Source: Rhodopseudomonas palustris (lineage in GTDB: Bacteria; Pseudomonadota; Alphaproteobacteria; Rhizobiales; Xanthobacteraceae). From it: DNA of 64,000 bases. This document shows positions 30,832-36,735 of the stretch, piece by piece (within the stretch, counting starts at the first letter, position 1; every line of letters starts with the position of its first letter). A program made the translations under genes and the position numbers. Location: assembly GCF_013415845.1 (NCBI RefSeq), contig NZ_CP058907.1, positions 4,774,001-4,838,000 of the forward strand, written 5' to 3'. The notes under the pieces are model-generated. The model made no database searches. It saw nothing but the letters and a program-made list of their open reading frames with translations, and was not told the DNA's origin.

Positions 30832-32274
30832 ATGGCCGGTGATTCCGGTAAAAAACTGTTCGTGGGCCCCCGCTTCCGCCGCATCCGGCAGCAGCTCGGG
30901 CTATCGCAAACCCAGATCGCCGAAGGTTTGGGCATTTCTCCCAGCTACGTCAACCTGATTGAGCGCAACCAGCGCCCGGTGACCGCCCAGATCCTGCTGC
31001 GGCTGGCCGAGACCTATGATCTCGACCTGCGCGACCTGGCGACCGCCGACGAGGACCGGTTCTTCGCCGAACTCAACGAGATCTTCTCCGATCCCTTGTT
31101 CCGGCAGATCGACCTGCCCAAGCAGGAACTGCGCGACCTCGCCGAGCTCTGCCCCGGCGTCACCCATTCGCTGCAGCGGCTGTATGCCGCCTATACCGAG
31201 GCGCGCCGCGGCGAGACCATGGTGGCGGCGCAGATGGCCGACCGCGAACAGATCCGCTACGAGGCCAATCCGATCGAGCGGATCCGCGACCTGATCGAGG
31301 CCAACCGCAATTATTTCCCCGAACTGGAGCAGGCCGCCGAGGCGGTGCGCGACGAGCTCAATATCGGCTCGCAGGAGATGTTCGGCGCACTGAGCGACCG
31401 GCTGCGCGAGCGCCATTCGATTACCACCCGGATCATGCCGGTCGACGTGATGCGCGAAACGCTGCGCCGGTTCGACCGCCACCGCCGGCAATTGCTGATC
31501 TCCGAACTGATCGACGGCCCCGGCCGCGCCTTCCAGGTCGCGTTCCAGACCGGGCTGACCGAGCATGGCGGCGTCATGGACGCGATCGTGCACCGCGCCG
31601 GCGGGCTCGAAGACCAGGCGCGGCGGCTGTATCGCATCACGCTCGGCAACTACTTCGCCGCCGCGGTGATGATGCCCTACGCGGCGTTCCACGCCGCCGC
31701 CGAGCAGCTCTCCTACGACGTCAACGTGCTGGCGCAGCGTTTCAACGCCGGCTTCGAACAGGTCTGCCACCGCCTCACCACGCTGCAGCGGCCGAACGCG
31801 CGCGGCGTGCCGTTCTTCATGCTGCGGGTCGACAACGCCGGCAACGTCTCCAAGCGGTTCTCCTCCGGCACCTTCCCGTTCTCGAAATTCGGCGGCACCT
31901 GCCCGCTGTGGAACGTGCACTCGACCTTCGATACGCCGGACCGGCTGCTCAAGCAGGTGATCGAACTGCCCGACGGCAGCCGCTACTTCTCGATCGCCCA
32001 GATGGTCCGCCGCCCGATCGCGCCGCATCCGCAGCCGCAGCCGCGTTTCGCGATCGGCCTGGGGTGCGAAATCCGCCACGCCTCGAAACTGATCTACGCC
32101 GCCGGCATGGACCTGGAGAAAGCCGAAGGCACCCCGATCGGCGTCAACTGCCGCCTCTGCGAGCGCGAACATTGCTCGCAAAGAGCGGAGCCGCCGATCA
32201 CCAGGACGCTGATCCTCGACGAGAACACACGGCGGGCCAGCAGCTTTGCGTTTAGTAATGCGCGGGAGTTATAG
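30832..32274 (+). CDS. scfR: ScfR/RamB-type XRE regulator of short-chain fatty acid metabolism
   Basis: A 480-aa regulator. The N-terminal XRE helix-turn-helix (about residues 12-70; LGLSQTQIAEGLGISPSYVN) is followed by a peptidase-like domain of IrrE/DUF2083 type without an HExxH motif, and a C-terminal domain with a Cys cluster, NCRLCEREHCSQ (CxxCx4C). This layout is that of RamB of Corynebacterium (represses aceA/aceB) and ScfR of alphaproteobacteria. Divergence from aceA supports direct control of the glyoxylate shunt by an acyl-CoA signal. Its last 238 bp are repeated at 34349-34576, at the far edge of the inserted cassette. Confidence 0.85.
   Translation: MAGDSGKKLFVGPRFRRIRQQLGLSQTQIAEGLGISPSYVNLIERNQRPVTAQILLRLAETYDLDLRDLATADEDRFFAELNEIFSDPLFRQIDLPKQELRDLAELCPGVTHSLQRLYAAYTEARRGETMVAAQMADREQIRYEANPIERIRDLIEANRNYFPELEQAAEAVRDELNIGSQEMFGALSDRLRERHSITTRIMPVDVMRETLRRFDRHRRQLLISELIDGPGRAFQVAFQTGLTEHGGVMDAIVHRAGGLEDQARRLYRITLGNYFAAAVMMPYAAFHAAAEQLSYDVNVLAQRFNAGFEQVCHRLTTLQRPNARGVPFFMLRVDNAGNVSKRFSSGTFPFSKFGGTCPLWNVHSTFDTPDRLLKQVIELPDGSRYFSIAQMVRRPIAPHPQPQPRFAIGLGCEIRHASKLIYAAGMDLEKAEGTPIGVNCRLCEREHCSQRAEPPITRTLILDENTRRASSFAFSNAREL
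32037..32274 (+). repeat. Direct repeat, copy 1: 3' end of scfR
   Basis: These 238 bp encode the last part of ScfR including the Cys cluster and stop. They match 34349-34576 with scattered, mostly third-position changes and one in-frame 9-bp gap. Homology stops abruptly at the stop codon on the right. The two copies bracket the cassette of 32317-34253. Confidence 0.85.
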
Positions 32275-32316
32275 GGGACGCCTACAGCAAGGCTTGTATT
32301 GCCACGGGGTTGTTAC

Positions 32317-33513
32317 TCAGTCTCGCCTAGTAAACGAAACCACCTCGCCCATTTCTGCACCGTCAGACACTCGTCCCGGACTCGGTTTAAGACGAACGAC
32401 CATAGCAGCCTCATGAGCGAACCAGCCTGGCGGCAATCCCGTTAGATTCTCAACATCACCCGCCGGAATTGTAAATTCGAGCGCCAACAGATCTGACTTC
32501 GACCGAACACCTCCATCAACAATCAAATGAAGAGCATCTCGAAGCAATCGGGGTTCGCCGGGTATCCATTGGCGATCGAACGGCTCCTCCTTTGTCCACC
32601 CCTTAGCAGAATACAGCTTGTAGAGGTGTGTAGCAAAGTCACCAGGAATAACATCGAGATCCGCCAACCGTTTGATTTGTGCCTTGATCGACACCCGCCA
32701 ACGCTCCTTCGCGGTCACCATACTTGCGAGCGAGGGGAAACGCATCTCGACTGGATAGGTAGTCGAAGGAAGCAAGAAAGCACTAGCTAGCCGGAACGCC
32801 TGCGTCTCTATCAGCTTTAGGTCTCGTTTGAGCTGTTCTTCGGACACGTCGCGATGGAGAATCGCATGCGCCATTTCATGCGCAGCATCCATTTGGCGCC
32901 GAGCGAACGACATTTTATCACTCGCAAGCAGTATATGCGGTCTATCGTCGCCTGGCGACCAACTGCACAATCCGTCGAGCTTCACCGTCCCCATTTCAAT
33001 GACGGCCACAACGAAACCGAGCCGCTCGAGCAACGGCACCATATCGCCGCACGGGCCTTCGCCAAGTTCCCAATGTCGCCGCAGATCTAGCGCGATCTGC
33101 TCAAGGTCTTCGTCACGAAGCTGGTGGTAACTGGCACCCGCCATCACGTCTGGAATGTTGACGGGGGGCAGATCAACATAGTGTTCGACAGCATTGCTGA
33201 TCTCTTGGAGCCACCGCATTTGCGCGCTCTGATACTGCAGATCCCGAACTAATGTGGACGAAAGTGAACGAAGGAACGTCGGCCGTGCTGAAACGCGCTC
33301 GGGCCGAAAGAAGAACTCCGGTCGAACCTGCAAAAATCCGGCCAATCGGGTTAGAGTCTCGGGATCAGGGGCCGAACTTCCATCTTCCCAACGCGAGACA
33401 GTACTGGGATTCAAACTCATCGCCCGCGCAAGAGCGGACATACTTGGAATCCTCCTAGCAGCCCTGACCTCCGTCAGGCGACCTGGCACGAAGCCTGGTG
33501 TACCAATTGGCAT
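32317..33513 (-). CDS. XRE helix-turn-helix plus ImmA/IrrE metallopeptidase
   Basis: A 398-aa fusion protein. The N-terminal XRE domain (about residues 12-66; MSALARAMSLNPSTVSRWE) is joined to a zinc peptidase domain of the ImmA/IrrE type with HEMAH at residues 212-216. ImmA-type peptidases cleave phage repressors and IrrE/DdrO-type repressors; XRE-ImmA fusions occur in mobile elements, toxin-antitoxin-like pairs and stress circuits. It is eight bases downstream of the 243-aa gene, so the two form an operon. The DNA looks less GC-rich and its codon use differs from neighbours (codons such as TTA, AGA and ATA appear), consistent with transfer. Its target is unknown. Confidence 0.85.
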   Translation of the reverse strand: MPIGTPGFVPGRLTEVRAARRIPSMSALARAMSLNPSTVSRWEDGSSAPDPETLTRLAGFLQVRPEFFFRPERVSARPTFLRSLSSTLVRDLQYQSAQMRWLQEISNAVEHYVDLPPVNIPDVMAGASYHQLRDEDLEQIALDLRRHWELGEGPCGDMVPLLERLGFVVAVIEMGTVKLDGLCSWSPGDDRPHILLASDKMSFARRQMDAAHEMAHAILHRDVSEEQLKRDLKLIETQAFRLASAFLLPSTTYPVEMRFPSLASMVTAKERWRVSIKAQIKRLADLDVIPGDFATHLYKLYSAKGWTKEEPFDRQWIPGEPRLLRDALHLIVDGGVRSKSDLLALEFTIPAGDVENLTGLPPGWFAHEAAMVVRLKPSPGRVSDGAEMGEVVSFTRRD

Positions 33514-33521
33514 GTCCGTAC

Positions 33522-34253
33522 TTAACCTGATGGGTTGTCGGTTGCGTCGTCCGAATCCGGCTTCTCCGGAGGCCTGAAAGCCCTGGGAGACGTCTTGAGC
33601 GTGACGAGCGGCTGACCTCCTGACGAGGGCTCTGTTGAATTCGGAGGCGGAGCATACGCCTCCATCAACAGCTCAACAGTCCTATATTCAAGGAATCCGT
33701 TATACTCGGCATCGATAACGCCAACTGCAACCTCATTAAGGCGGCCGCCCCGCGAGGGATCACGAGCGAAGAGGAAGAGGACGAAAATGTCGCCCGGCTT
33801 GGCTCTTCCCTTGCCTCCTTCCAAGTCCAGACGCGGCGTGAGAAGGTAGTTCAAGGTCACGCCCACGAGCCTAGACTTGTTCTTTGTTGGCAGCTCTCTC
33901 GGTGCCGGCATCGAGGCCAATCCCAGCAGTACCCCCGGTTTATCGCCCCCAAACCGCATGAATGGTTGAAAGTACTGCAGATCGGTCCCGGGGATCACGT
34001 CCCCTTCCAGCCTCATCCCTCCATGACGTTCGCACACATCCTGAAAACCCTTCTCCATCAGACGGAAGCGAGCTTGCCCTTCCAGCCCTCGCGCACTTCG
34101 CCCGGTCAGGTCAGTGTTGTCGCGAATAAGTTCGTGAGCCTGACGCGCCCGCGACTCGGCGGCATCCAGAAGGTCGATCAGCAGATCGCGACGCAAAGTC
34201 GCGACGATACGCGCACCAATTTCATCCTCGGACATTTCAGAGCCCCGAATCAT
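33522..34253 (-). CDS. Uncharacterised protein, first gene of the XRE-ImmA cassette
   Basis: A 243-aa soluble protein I do not recognise. The N-terminal third (MSEDEIGARIVATLRRDLLI) is predicted helical, the middle (GVLLGLASMPAPRE, LVGVTLNYLLTPRLDLEGGK) looks beta-rich, and the C-terminal 50 residues are disordered and Pro/Ser/Asp-rich. No catalytic motif is visible. It starts at ATG 34253 or 34235. It is the upstream partner of the XRE-ImmA gene, so a substrate, toxin or sensor role beside the peptidase is possible. It is probably carried in with the cassette. Confidence 0.7.
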   Translation of the reverse strand: MIRGSEMSEDEIGARIVATLRRDLLIDLLDAAESRARQAHELIRDNTDLTGRSARGLEGQARFRLMEKGFQDVCERHGGMRLEGDVIPGTDLQYFQPFMRFGGDKPGVLLGLASMPAPRELPTKNKSRLVGVTLNYLLTPRLDLEGGKGRAKPGDIFVLFLFARDPSRGGRLNEVAVGVIDAEYNGFLEYRTVELLMEAYAPPPNSTEPSSGGQPLVTLKTSPRAFRPPEKPDSDDATDNPSG

Positions 34254-34348
34254 TGCGCCAGACCTGATTATCTACCGATATTTTTGCACAAACAAGGAAT
34301 AATGCTACGAAGGTATCTTGAAAACCGTTGTCGGTCGCAGTTCCTTTG

Positions 34349-34576
34349 CAGCCACGCTTAGCCATGGGCTTTGGGTGCCACGCCTCGAAACTGATCCACA
34401 CCGCCGCCATGGAGCTTGAGAAAGCCGAAGGCACCCCGATCGGCGTCAACTGCCGCCTGTGCGAGCGCGAACACTGCTCGCAAAGAGCGGAGCCGCCGAT
34501 CACAAGAACGCTGATCCTGGACGAGAACACGCGGCGGGCCAGCAGCTTTGCGTTTAGTAACGCGCGGGAGCTGTGA
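34349..34576 (+). pseudogene. Remnant copy of the scfR 3' end (direct repeat, copy 2)
   Basis: The frame encodes ASKLIHTAAMELEKAEG, the Cys cluster NCRLCEREHCSQ and the same C-terminus as ScfR. It lacks the other 400 residues and has no ribosome-binding site. Compared with copy 1 it has a 9-bp in-frame deletion before HASKL and many silent changes. It is best read as the displaced or imported end of scfR left when the cassette entered. Confidence 0.85.
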
Positions 34577-34586
34577 GCTGGTTGGC

Positions 34587-34604
34587 GTAACGCAAACGTG
34601 TTAC
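34587..34604. promoter_or_regulatory. Candidate operator of the RelB/YafQ module
   Basis: GTAAC gcaaacgt GTTAC is an inverted repeat (5-bp arms, 8-bp spacer) ending nine bases before the antitoxin ATG. RelB-type antitoxins repress their own promoter at such sites. The arms are short, so support is weak. Confidence 0.3.
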
Positions 34605-34612
34605 AGTGAAGT

Positions 34613-34966
34613 ATGACGGCGAAGACCCAAACCAAAACAGCTCGTTCTCCCGCGAAGCGGGACGGGAAGACTGCGGGCAAGACGGCCGCCCGTAAGCCGG
34701 TCAAGAGCGGCTACATCAACGCGCGTGTCGAGCCGAAGCTGAAGAAGAGCGCCGAGGCGGTGCTCGACAAGATCGGGCTGTCGACCACCGATGCGGTGAC
34801 GATGTTTCTCAAACAGGTCGTCGCCCATAAAGGCATGCCGTTTCCGGTGAAGGTTCCTAACAAGGAGACCATCCGCGCCTTACGCAATGCCGAACGCGGG
34901 CGGGTCACGCGATTCAGCGGCACGACCGAAGAGTTCTTCGCCCATCTGGATAAGACAACCCGCTGA
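34613..34966 (+). CDS. RelB/DinJ-family antitoxin with basic N-terminal extension
   Basis: A 117-aa protein. Residues about 32-75 form a ribbon-helix-helix of RelB/DinJ type (YINARVEPKLKKSAEAVLD, LSTTDAVTMFLKQVV), with the usual AHKGMPFPVKVPN segment after it. The first 31 residues are an added Lys/Arg/Ala/Thr tail (SPAKRDGKTAGKTAARKPVK), which normal DinJ (86 aa) lacks. It neutralises the downstream toxin and represses the operon. It begins 37 bp after the scfR remnant and so borders the inserted region. Confidence 0.85.
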   Translation: MTAKTQTKTARSPAKRDGKTAGKTAARKPVKSGYINARVEPKLKKSAEAVLDKIGLSTTDAVTMFLKQVVAHKGMPFPVKVPNKETIRALRNAERGRVTRFSGTTEEFFAHLDKTTR

Positions 34967-34976
34967 ACGGGGTGTC

Positions 34977-35249
34977 ATGAAGGAGCTGGACCATACTGGC
35001 TCATTCAAGCGCGACTACAAGCGGATCAAGAAGCGCGGTTATGACCTGTCGAAATTGTCGGCGGTCATCGACCTTCTGCGACGGGACCTACCTCTGCCCG
35101 CCTCCAATCGGCCGCACGCCCTCAAAGGCAGATGGCGCGGCTTTCTGGAATGTCACGTCGAGCCGGATTGGCTGCTGATCTATCAGACCGACGCACACAG
35201 CGTGCTGCTGGCGCGAACCGGCACCCACTCCGACCTGTTCGACGAGTGA
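34977..35249 (+). CDS. YafQ/RelE-family mRNA interferase toxin
   Basis: A 90-aa toxin, 10 bp after the antitoxin gene. The C-terminal part LIYQTDAHSVLLARTGTHSDLF fits the YafQ pattern in which His residues (HALKG, HVEPDW, TGTHSDLF) act in ribosome-dependent mRNA cleavage. It starts at ATG 34977. The pair makes a complete type II toxin-antitoxin system. Confidence 0.88.
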   Translation: MKELDHTGSFKRDYKRIKKRGYDLSKLSAVIDLLRRDLPLPASNRPHALKGRWRGFLECHVEPDWLLIYQTDAHSVLLARTGTHSDLFDE

Positions 35250-35274
35250 CCGCAGCGTGATCTCTCCCATCGGG

Positions 35275-35362
35275 CGTCGTTGCCGGGCTTGACCCGGCAC
35301 CCCATCCCGCCAAGACTCGTCGTCTGATTTGATGGATCGCCGGGTCGAGCCCGGCGATGACG
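35275..35362. repeat. Palindromic repeat, family C
   Basis: The unit runs from CGTCGTTGCCGGGCTTGACC to GGTCGAGCCCGGCGATGACG, which are nearly exact reverse complements. The centre is caagactcgtcgtctga. It fills the gap between the toxin and the transglycosylase gene; an earlier in-frame ATG of the latter lies inside it and is rejected. Confidence 0.7.
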
Positions 35363-35376
35363 TTGGTGAGGTGGCG

Positions 35377-36735
35377 ATGCTGCGGCTTGGTTCGACGGTT
35401 CGAGACGTGCGCGCTCTTGCTCGCGGGCTGCGCATGGCTTGTGCGGCGGCAGCGATCTCCGCAGCCACAGTGCTCTCCTCCCCCGCCCTCGCCCAGCGCG
35501 GTGCCTCGTGTCATGGCGGGCAGAGCTTTCCGCAGTTCCTCGCCGGCCTGAAACAGAAAGCCGTTGCGGCTGGCGTATCGCAAAGCGCGATCGCGGAAGC
35601 CTCGCCGTATCTGGTGTACGATCAGGGCATCGTCAATCGCGACCGCGGGCAGCGGGTGTTCGGGCAGATCTTCACGGTGTTCGCCGGACGGATGGCGTCG
35701 GAGGGACGGCGCGTCAAAGGCCAGCAACTGATCAAGCAATACGCGCAGGCGTTCGCGCGGGCCGAGAAGGAGTACGGCGTGCCGCCCGCGGTGATCGCGG
35801 CGTTCTGGGCGCTGGAGAGTGACTTCGGGGCGATCCAGGGCAACCTGTCGACGCTGCGCTCGCTGGTATCGCTCGCCTATGACTGCCGTCGCTCCGAGAT
35901 GTTCCAGGACGAGACCATCGCGGCGCTGAAGATCATCGACCGCGGCGACCTGACGCCGGGCGAGATGATCGGCTCCTGGGCCGGCGAACTCGGTCAGACG
36001 CAATTCCTGCCGCGGCATTATTACGACTACGCGGTCGATTATGACGGCGACGGCCACCGCGACCTGCTGCACAGCGCGCCCGACGTGATCGGCTCGACCG
36101 CGCACTACATCGCGGCCGGCCTGAAATGGCGACGCGGCGAGCCGTGGCTGCAGGAGGTGCGCGTTCCTGAGAACCTGCCGTGGGATCAGGCAGATCTCAC
36201 CGTGAAGCATCCGCGCTCGCAATGGGCGCAGTGGGGCGTGACCAACGCGGACGGCCGGCCGCTGTCCAACGACGCGCTGCCGGCCTCGCTGCTGCTGCCG
36301 ATGGGGCGGCACGGCCCGGCGTTCCTCGCCTATGCGAACTTCGCCGCCTACACCGAGTGGAACAACTCGCTGATCTATTCGACCACCGCGGCCTATCTCG
36401 CCACCCGCATCGCCGGAGCCGGGCCGATGCAGAAGCCGCGCGCCGCAGTCGCTCAGCTGTCGTTCAACGAGATGAAACAGCTGCAGCAGCTTCTGGTGCG
36501 CGCCGGCTTCGATGTCGGCAAGGTCGACGGTGTGCTCGGCCAGCAGACCCGCAGCGCGGTGAAGACCATGCAGCTCAAATACGGCCTGCCGGCGGATTCC
36601 TGGCCGACCGCCGAACTGCTCACCCGCATGGGCGGCAGCGCTGCGCCGGCACCTTCGGCTTCTGCAGAATCGATGCAGCCGACCGAGCCGCGGCGCGCCA
36701 AACGCGCCCGTCCGCCAGCACCGCTGCCGCAATAG
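35377..36735 (+). CDS. Lytic murein transglycosylase, MltB family, with peptidoglycan-binding domain
   Basis: About 452 aa. A signal peptide (MACAAAAISAATVLSSPALAQ) is followed by an SLT_2 (MltB-like) domain from about residue 45 to 350, with the catalytic Glu in FWALESDFGAIQG and the motif GELGQTQFLP. A C-terminal PG_binding_1 domain (LQQLLVRAGFDVGKVDGVLG) and a Pro/Ala-rich tail end the protein. It cleaves the MurNAc-GlcNAc bond to leave 1,6-anhydroMurNAc. No lipobox is present, so it is soluble in the periplasm. Confidence 0.93.
   Translation: MLRLGSTVRDVRALARGLRMACAAAAISAATVLSSPALAQRGASCHGGQSFPQFLAGLKQKAVAAGVSQSAIAEASPYLVYDQGIVNRDRGQRVFGQIFTVFAGRMASEGRRVKGQQLIKQYAQAFARAEKEYGVPPAVIAAFWALESDFGAIQGNLSTLRSLVSLAYDCRRSEMFQDETIAALKIIDRGDLTPGEMIGSWAGELGQTQFLPRHYYDYAVDYDGDGHRDLLHSAPDVIGSTAHYIAAGLKWRRGEPWLQEVRVPENLPWDQADLTVKHPRSQWAQWGVTNADGRPLSNDALPASLLLPMGRHGPAFLAYANFAAYTEWNNSLIYSTTAAYLATRIAGAGPMQKPRAAVAQLSFNEMKQLQQLLVRAGFDVGKVDGVLGQQTRSAVKTMQLKYGLPADSWPTAELLTRMGGSAAPAPSASAESMQPTEPRRAKRARPPAPLPQ

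Follow-up and report, generated by a model that had tools for sequence, protein, structure and literature searches.

What is the two-gene cassette that sits behind the regulator gene scfR in Rhodopseudomonas palustris, and does it represent a system that has so far escaped description? An initial annotation, made from the letters of the window alone (the whole analysed stretch of 64,000 nucleotides, contig NZ_CP058907.1), had described a 243-aa protein of no recognised family next to an XRE/ImmA-IrrE metallopeptidase, and had proposed the two as a candidate undescribed system. New this system is not: both proteins match RosmerTA profiles of the PADLOC collection, and RosmerTA is already in print. 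Judging from these matches, the gene pair is a member of the known RosmerTA toxin-antitoxin family, which is linked to defence against viruses. Later literature attributes the system to Millman et al. 2022, where it was reportedly first described. Because it has been described before, the pair is a new RosmerTA copy rather than a new system, and its presence in a defence-gene catalogue closes what would have been a false lead.

We consider it very probable that these two genes constitute a RosmerTA unit gained by horizontal transfer, composed of the toxin gene rmrT and of rmrA, which would encode a two-domain antitoxin/repressor, and that the unit would mediate a phage- or stress-triggered growth arrest. 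The initial annotation had also suggested that the genes are mobile and act as a toxin-antitoxin or in phage defence, and this idea is supported by profile matches over nearly the whole length of both proteins and by recurrence at varied loci. To the family, the locus contributes a further chromosomal copy next to scfR, a promoter element that recurs among relatives, and a hypothesis on the fold of the toxin.

Identity of the gene pair

The two open reading frames are confirmed as a tight operon on the minus strand, separated by 8 nt:

33522..34253, minus strand: rmrT, putative RosmerTA toxin gene, 243 aa as listed (PADLOC RmrT PDLC03942)
32317..33513, minus strand: rmrA, putative antitoxin/regulator gene, 398 aa, XRE helix-turn-helix (HTH) plus M78 (ImmA/IrrE) metallopeptidase (PADLOC RmrA PDLC03956)
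32866..32880, minus strand: codons of the predicted HExxH zinc site of RmrA (H212, E213, H216), placed by alignment of RmrA proteins

The 243-aa protein matches the RmrT profile PDLC03942 with 313 bits (E 3.2e-94), its residues 9-241 aligning to positions 2-236 of the 238 in the profile, and RmrA matches PDLC03956 with 671 bits (E 1.6e-202). The affiliation extends to the relatives of RmrT, since nine of the ten that were scanned against the PADLOC toxin profiles hit PDLC03942 at E 2.6e-34 or better; the tenth, L037, has its best match in PDLC03934. Pfam, NCBIfam and PHROGs hold no match to the 243-aa protein at E 1, and this explains why it had been assigned to no recognised family, a statement that is correct for those three collections but not for PADLOC. 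A reader without PADLOC-type models may for the same reason rediscover the pair. The native start of rmrT is probably Met7 at 34235, which would yield a protein of 237 aa, because L002 and L003 start there in the alignment. For RmrA, the assignment as an XRE/ImmA-IrrE metallopeptidase is borne out by HTH_3 and Peptidase_M78 domains that both exceed their Pfam cut-offs, and H212, E213 and H216, together with E236, are invariant across all 13 aligned RmrA proteins. A search of PDB sequences with RmrA returned no match at E 0.01.

RmrA has been described as an antitoxin with an ImmA protease domain that is partnered by different toxins, and phage defence has been reported for a phage-borne RosmerTA member (available sections of PMC10440598). 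By homology, RmrA of the window would be the antitoxin and the repressor of its operon, and RmrT the toxin. The pair shares with RosmerTA an antitoxin built from HTH and M78 domains, the two-gene organisation, and relatives in mobile or defence-gene surroundings. We found nothing that breaks membership; the window holds an additional, chromosomal copy beside scfR in which the toxin gene comes first. The RosmerTA pair of Gordonia phage Kita, as far as the accessible text of PMC10440598 describes it, likewise combines an ImmA-domain antitoxin with a toxin, RmrT D5, that lacks Pfam relatives. A defence role is nevertheless not certain for each RosmerTA member, because two tested homologues were inefficient against most phages and narrow in their activity (PMC12322248, in the parts available), and because work on RipAB, a pneumococcal Rosmer pair, addressed the control of competence rather than phage defence (PMC12795458, in the parts available).

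Recurrence of the pair

Is the pairing of rmrT with rmrA peculiar to this site? Relatives of RmrT were found at four loci in genome contigs, at 12 among 72,556 plasmid records and on one viral contig, and in none of 50,697 phage records at E 1e-5; the viral contig was found with alignment A1 as query, and scans of the viral contigs with the single protein or with the distant RmrT of L037 returned none. At all 16 loci from genomes and plasmids, an intact rmrA comes directly after rmrT on the same strand, 12-83 nt away, and the order is the same at four further loci (L037, L051, L052 and L069); two additional Pantoea matches, H14 and H15, are left out of these counts. When the viral contigs were searched with RmrA first, an RmrT-like gene was located directly upstream in four of four cases, one of them cut by the contig end. 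Recurrent pairing at varied loci, which the initial annotation had named as its own test, is therefore seen on plasmids, chromosomes and viral contigs.

A sample of genomes from the same taxonomic family was examined as well. Of 20 loci retrieved from it by a match to the RmrA profile, one is the window's own; this locus and the three strongest of the rest (>370 bits) carry an adjoining RmrT, although the RmrT of one of these three, L083, reads exactly as that of L003, so that the two probably stem from one genome. The 16 loci below 300 bits have no adjoining RmrT of the window's kind at E 0.01. Upstream of the RmrA-like genes of L085, L087 and L088 lie partner frames of 234-241 aa that resemble each other by eye; the RmrT profile misses them at E 0.01, and they may constitute another RmrT class.

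Relatives on plasmids have as neighbours genes for VapC, HigA, AbiE, an Abi-family protein, Fic, BsuBI-type restriction-modification enzymes and integrases, as well as IS21. RmrT itself appears to be rare: other genomes contain it in one of 384 (class draw), one of 396 (order draw) and none of 397 cases (phylum draw), counts that are rough because the samples are draws from larger groups and only the seven best candidates were scored in many genomes. The window's own genome has one copy, and none was found in 15 other members of the genus.

Two individual loci deserve a remark. On one viral contig (L073, 2258-4146), the RosmerTA pair directly follows a gene that reads by eye as a phage terminase large subunit, which is a phage-borne cargo position. 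On a plasmid of Rhizobium sp. TCK (L046), the annotation shows RmrA only as an ImmA/IrrE peptidase of reduced length; since the frame that covers both HTH and peptidase is intact, the annotated start is probably wrong.

Predicted promoter element and proposed regulation

How might expression of the pair be controlled? Upstream of rmrT lies a candidate control region:

34254..34295, minus strand: predicted promoter/operator of rmrTA, with two boxes and direct repeats

The boxes read TTGTTT (34295-34290) and GATAAT (34272-34267) and are separated by a 17-nt spacer. Around the -10-like box, the window has direct repeats, GCAA (from 34287) and GCA (34256-34254), 31 nt apart. The pattern GCAAWW followed by GCA after 30-32 nt occurs in 13 of 23 upstream regions against 0.14 expected from mononucleotide shuffles, an expectation that overstates the contrast, since the pattern was picked with these data in view and the regions are interrelated. 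The repeats lie 31 nt apart in every one of the 13 regions except L004, where the distance is 30 nt, and they flank a -10-like box in 11 of them, being located elsewhere in L043 and L046. The remaining ten regions lack the strict pattern (L042, L045, L047, L048, L049, L069, L037, L052, L072 and L073). Its background rate, taken over 16 loci on both strands and with the promoters counted in, corresponds to 0.015 per region. Five loci lie outside the discovery set; L081 carries the pattern at 31 nt, and L084, L085, L087 and L088 lack it in its strict form. A perfect palindromic operator was considered as well and discarded, as it is present in two of 19 upstream regions and not in the window; the recurrent element is the direct repeat.

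The direct repeats would fit binding of the RmrA HTH at its own promoter. We envision a scenario whereby, in the uninfected cell, RmrA holds RmrT silent and keeps the promoter low, its XRE domain probably repressing the operon via the direct repeats that flank the -10 box. A signal derived from a phage or from stress might then disturb RmrA and free RmrT, and the freed toxin would stop growth before phage release. Toxicity, its neutralisation and phage defence are attributed to the window pair by analogy with published RosmerTA systems, and the same analogy suggests that phage would trigger the release of RmrT.

Conceivable activities of RmrT

By what activity might RmrT arrest growth? We found no mechanism in the open-licence literature for the RmrT proteins of the models PDLC03942, PDLC03934 and PDLC03937. 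One possible, albeit tentative, answer is that RmrT is a nuclease-fold toxin of the PD-(D/E)XK-like type, which would bind or attack DNA or RNA. Two RmrT structure models bear a weak resemblance to PD-(D/E)XK nucleases and lack a canonical active site. The conserved catalytic signature of this superfamily is D...(D/E)xK, and inspection of alignments A5 and A2 by eye revealed no invariant set of this kind. Other entries in the VIA-align lists for the two models, beyond PD-(D/E)XK proteins, are Rep15, CysQ, SAL1 and PRORP. Foldseek gave no confident fold, neither for the window's RmrT model against the PDB (best match Rep15, E 0.026) nor for either RmrT model against viral models, and the RmrT profile A1 yielded three matches among PDB sequences, at E 0.21 or worse. 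From an abstract perspective, the RmrTs of PDLC03942, PDLC03934 and PDLC03937 might all belong to one PD-(D/E)XK-like superfamily whose active site has been lost or rewired, many of them expressed under a common promoter layout with RmrA-bound direct repeats about three helical turns apart. We regard this generalisation as rather doubtful; if true, it would provide a structural handle on the RosmerTA toxin class.

Alternatively, the target blocked by RmrT may be a protein of the replication machinery, for instance the sliding clamp, as is the case for RipA. RipAB (Spr1630/Spr1629) resembles the window pair in combining a toxin with an XRE plus ImmA-like antitoxin; its authors place it in the Rosmer family, and its toxin acts on DnaN (PMC12795458, as far as its available text goes). 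RmrA does score on NCBIfam NF052239, the model of the spr1629 antitoxin family to which the RipAB antitoxin belongs, but its 134 bits fall far under the equivalog cut-off of 335. Moreover, no conserved clamp-binding peptide was seen in the RmrT alignment, as judged by eye, and we deem this activity unlikely.

Depolarisation of membranes has been reported for the RosmerTA toxin of phage Kita, D5, whose C-terminal region is predicted to reside in the membrane (PMC10440598, accessible portions), whereas RmrT of the window has no hydrophobic segment, its highest 19-residue Kyte-Doolittle mean being 0.80, so that we reject a membrane toxin here as highly improbable.

Finally, the pair might be no toxin-antitoxin system at all and instead operate as an induction switch of a mobile element, comparable to ImmA/ImmR. 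Such a switch teams a peptidase with an HTH repressor that is a protein of its own, and with an integrase, and the insert does not hold this set: M78 is indeed the family of ImmA-type peptidases, and some relatives are found near integrases or in viral contigs, but in RmrA the HTH is fused to the peptidase, RmrT has no Pfam match, the ORF list of the 2.3-kb insert, read by eye, contains nothing integrase-like, and both proteins match RosmerTA profiles, all of which leaves the switch with very little credit.

Insertion behind scfR

If the pair is an acquired RosmerTA unit, how is it placed within its host chromosome? The surrounding features are as follows:

30832..32274, plus strand: gene for an scfR/RamB-type regulator, an intact host gene that holds copy 1 of the scfR 3' end (Pfam ScfRs, Peptidase_M78 and HTH_3)
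34348..34576, plus strand: copy 2 of the scfR 3' end, 5'-truncated and apparently decayed, at the far border of the insertion and in what looks like the native scfR-relB context
34613..34966, plus strand: RelB-family antitoxin gene (PF04221, E 8.9e-16), a resident of the site in other genus members and outside RosmerTA
34977..35249, plus strand: YafQ-family toxin gene (PF15738, E 1e-33), outside RosmerTA

ScfR and RmrA have XRE and Peptidase_M78 domains in common, and ScfR in addition possesses the ScfRs C-terminal domain, which RmrA lacks; the two are neighbours through insertion and do not form one unit. The initial description of the pair as antisense to scfR is accurate with respect to the strand but not with respect to overlap, as scfR and rmrA are convergent and 42 nt separate the ends of their stop codons. 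Its observation that the pair sits between two copies of the scfR 3' end is sound: positions 32075-32268 and 34377-34570 form a repeat of 194 nt with 94% identity that flanks both genes and is by far the longest in the 7 kb searched, and the scfR homology of copy 2 begins near 34348. The atypical codon use noted at the same time is equally evident. With third-position GC as the sole codon measure, rmrA reaches 0.55 and rmrT 0.63, against 0.77-0.91 in six neighbouring genes (aceA, scfR and the SBP gene 0.88-0.91, the transglycosylase gene 0.83, relB/yafQ 0.77-0.78), and the GC content of the insert is 0.53-0.60; the composition of rmrTA is foreign. A search for structured RNA in 32000-35400 gave no Rfam match at the gathering threshold.

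Comparison with the genus is consistent with an insertion into a resident scfR-relB arrangement. The scfR orthologues of 15 genus mates are 88-99% identical. None of 16 relatives contains a match to the insert downstream of scfR, with 0.7 kb readable in G004; G013, whose contig stops at this point, was left out of the comparison. Directly behind scfR, G015 and G008 have a RelB/YafQ pair with 93.7% and 85.9% identity, respectively, to 34613-35249; this pair matches partially in G001, G002 and G012, is present in G006 and has no match in the other relatives. The sequence right after copy 2 of the window matches the scfR-relB junction of G015. In our interpretation, the native scfR 3' end was displaced and persists as copy 2, and the functional gene is now completed by copy 1. 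In a tree of scfR ends, the branch of copy 2 measures 0.063 and that of copy 1 0.005, and copy 2 has the look of a remnant in decay; the same tree joins the two window copies with weak support (86/46).

Other genomes harbour different cargo at the same position. Behind scfR, G006 has a low-GC insert (L056 700-1987) with an antisense ORF of 308 aa that shows a sub-threshold DUF4238 match, followed by a fragment resembling the transglycosylase gene, a 48-nt remnant of the scfR end and then relB-yafQ; this insert was apparently acquired independently at the same position. G003 has yet another low-GC insert after scfR (L054 614-1648), which carries an ORF of 344 aa without a Pfam or PADLOC match at E 0.1. 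The 3' flank of scfR thus varies across the genus and seems to have acquired accessory genes repeatedly.
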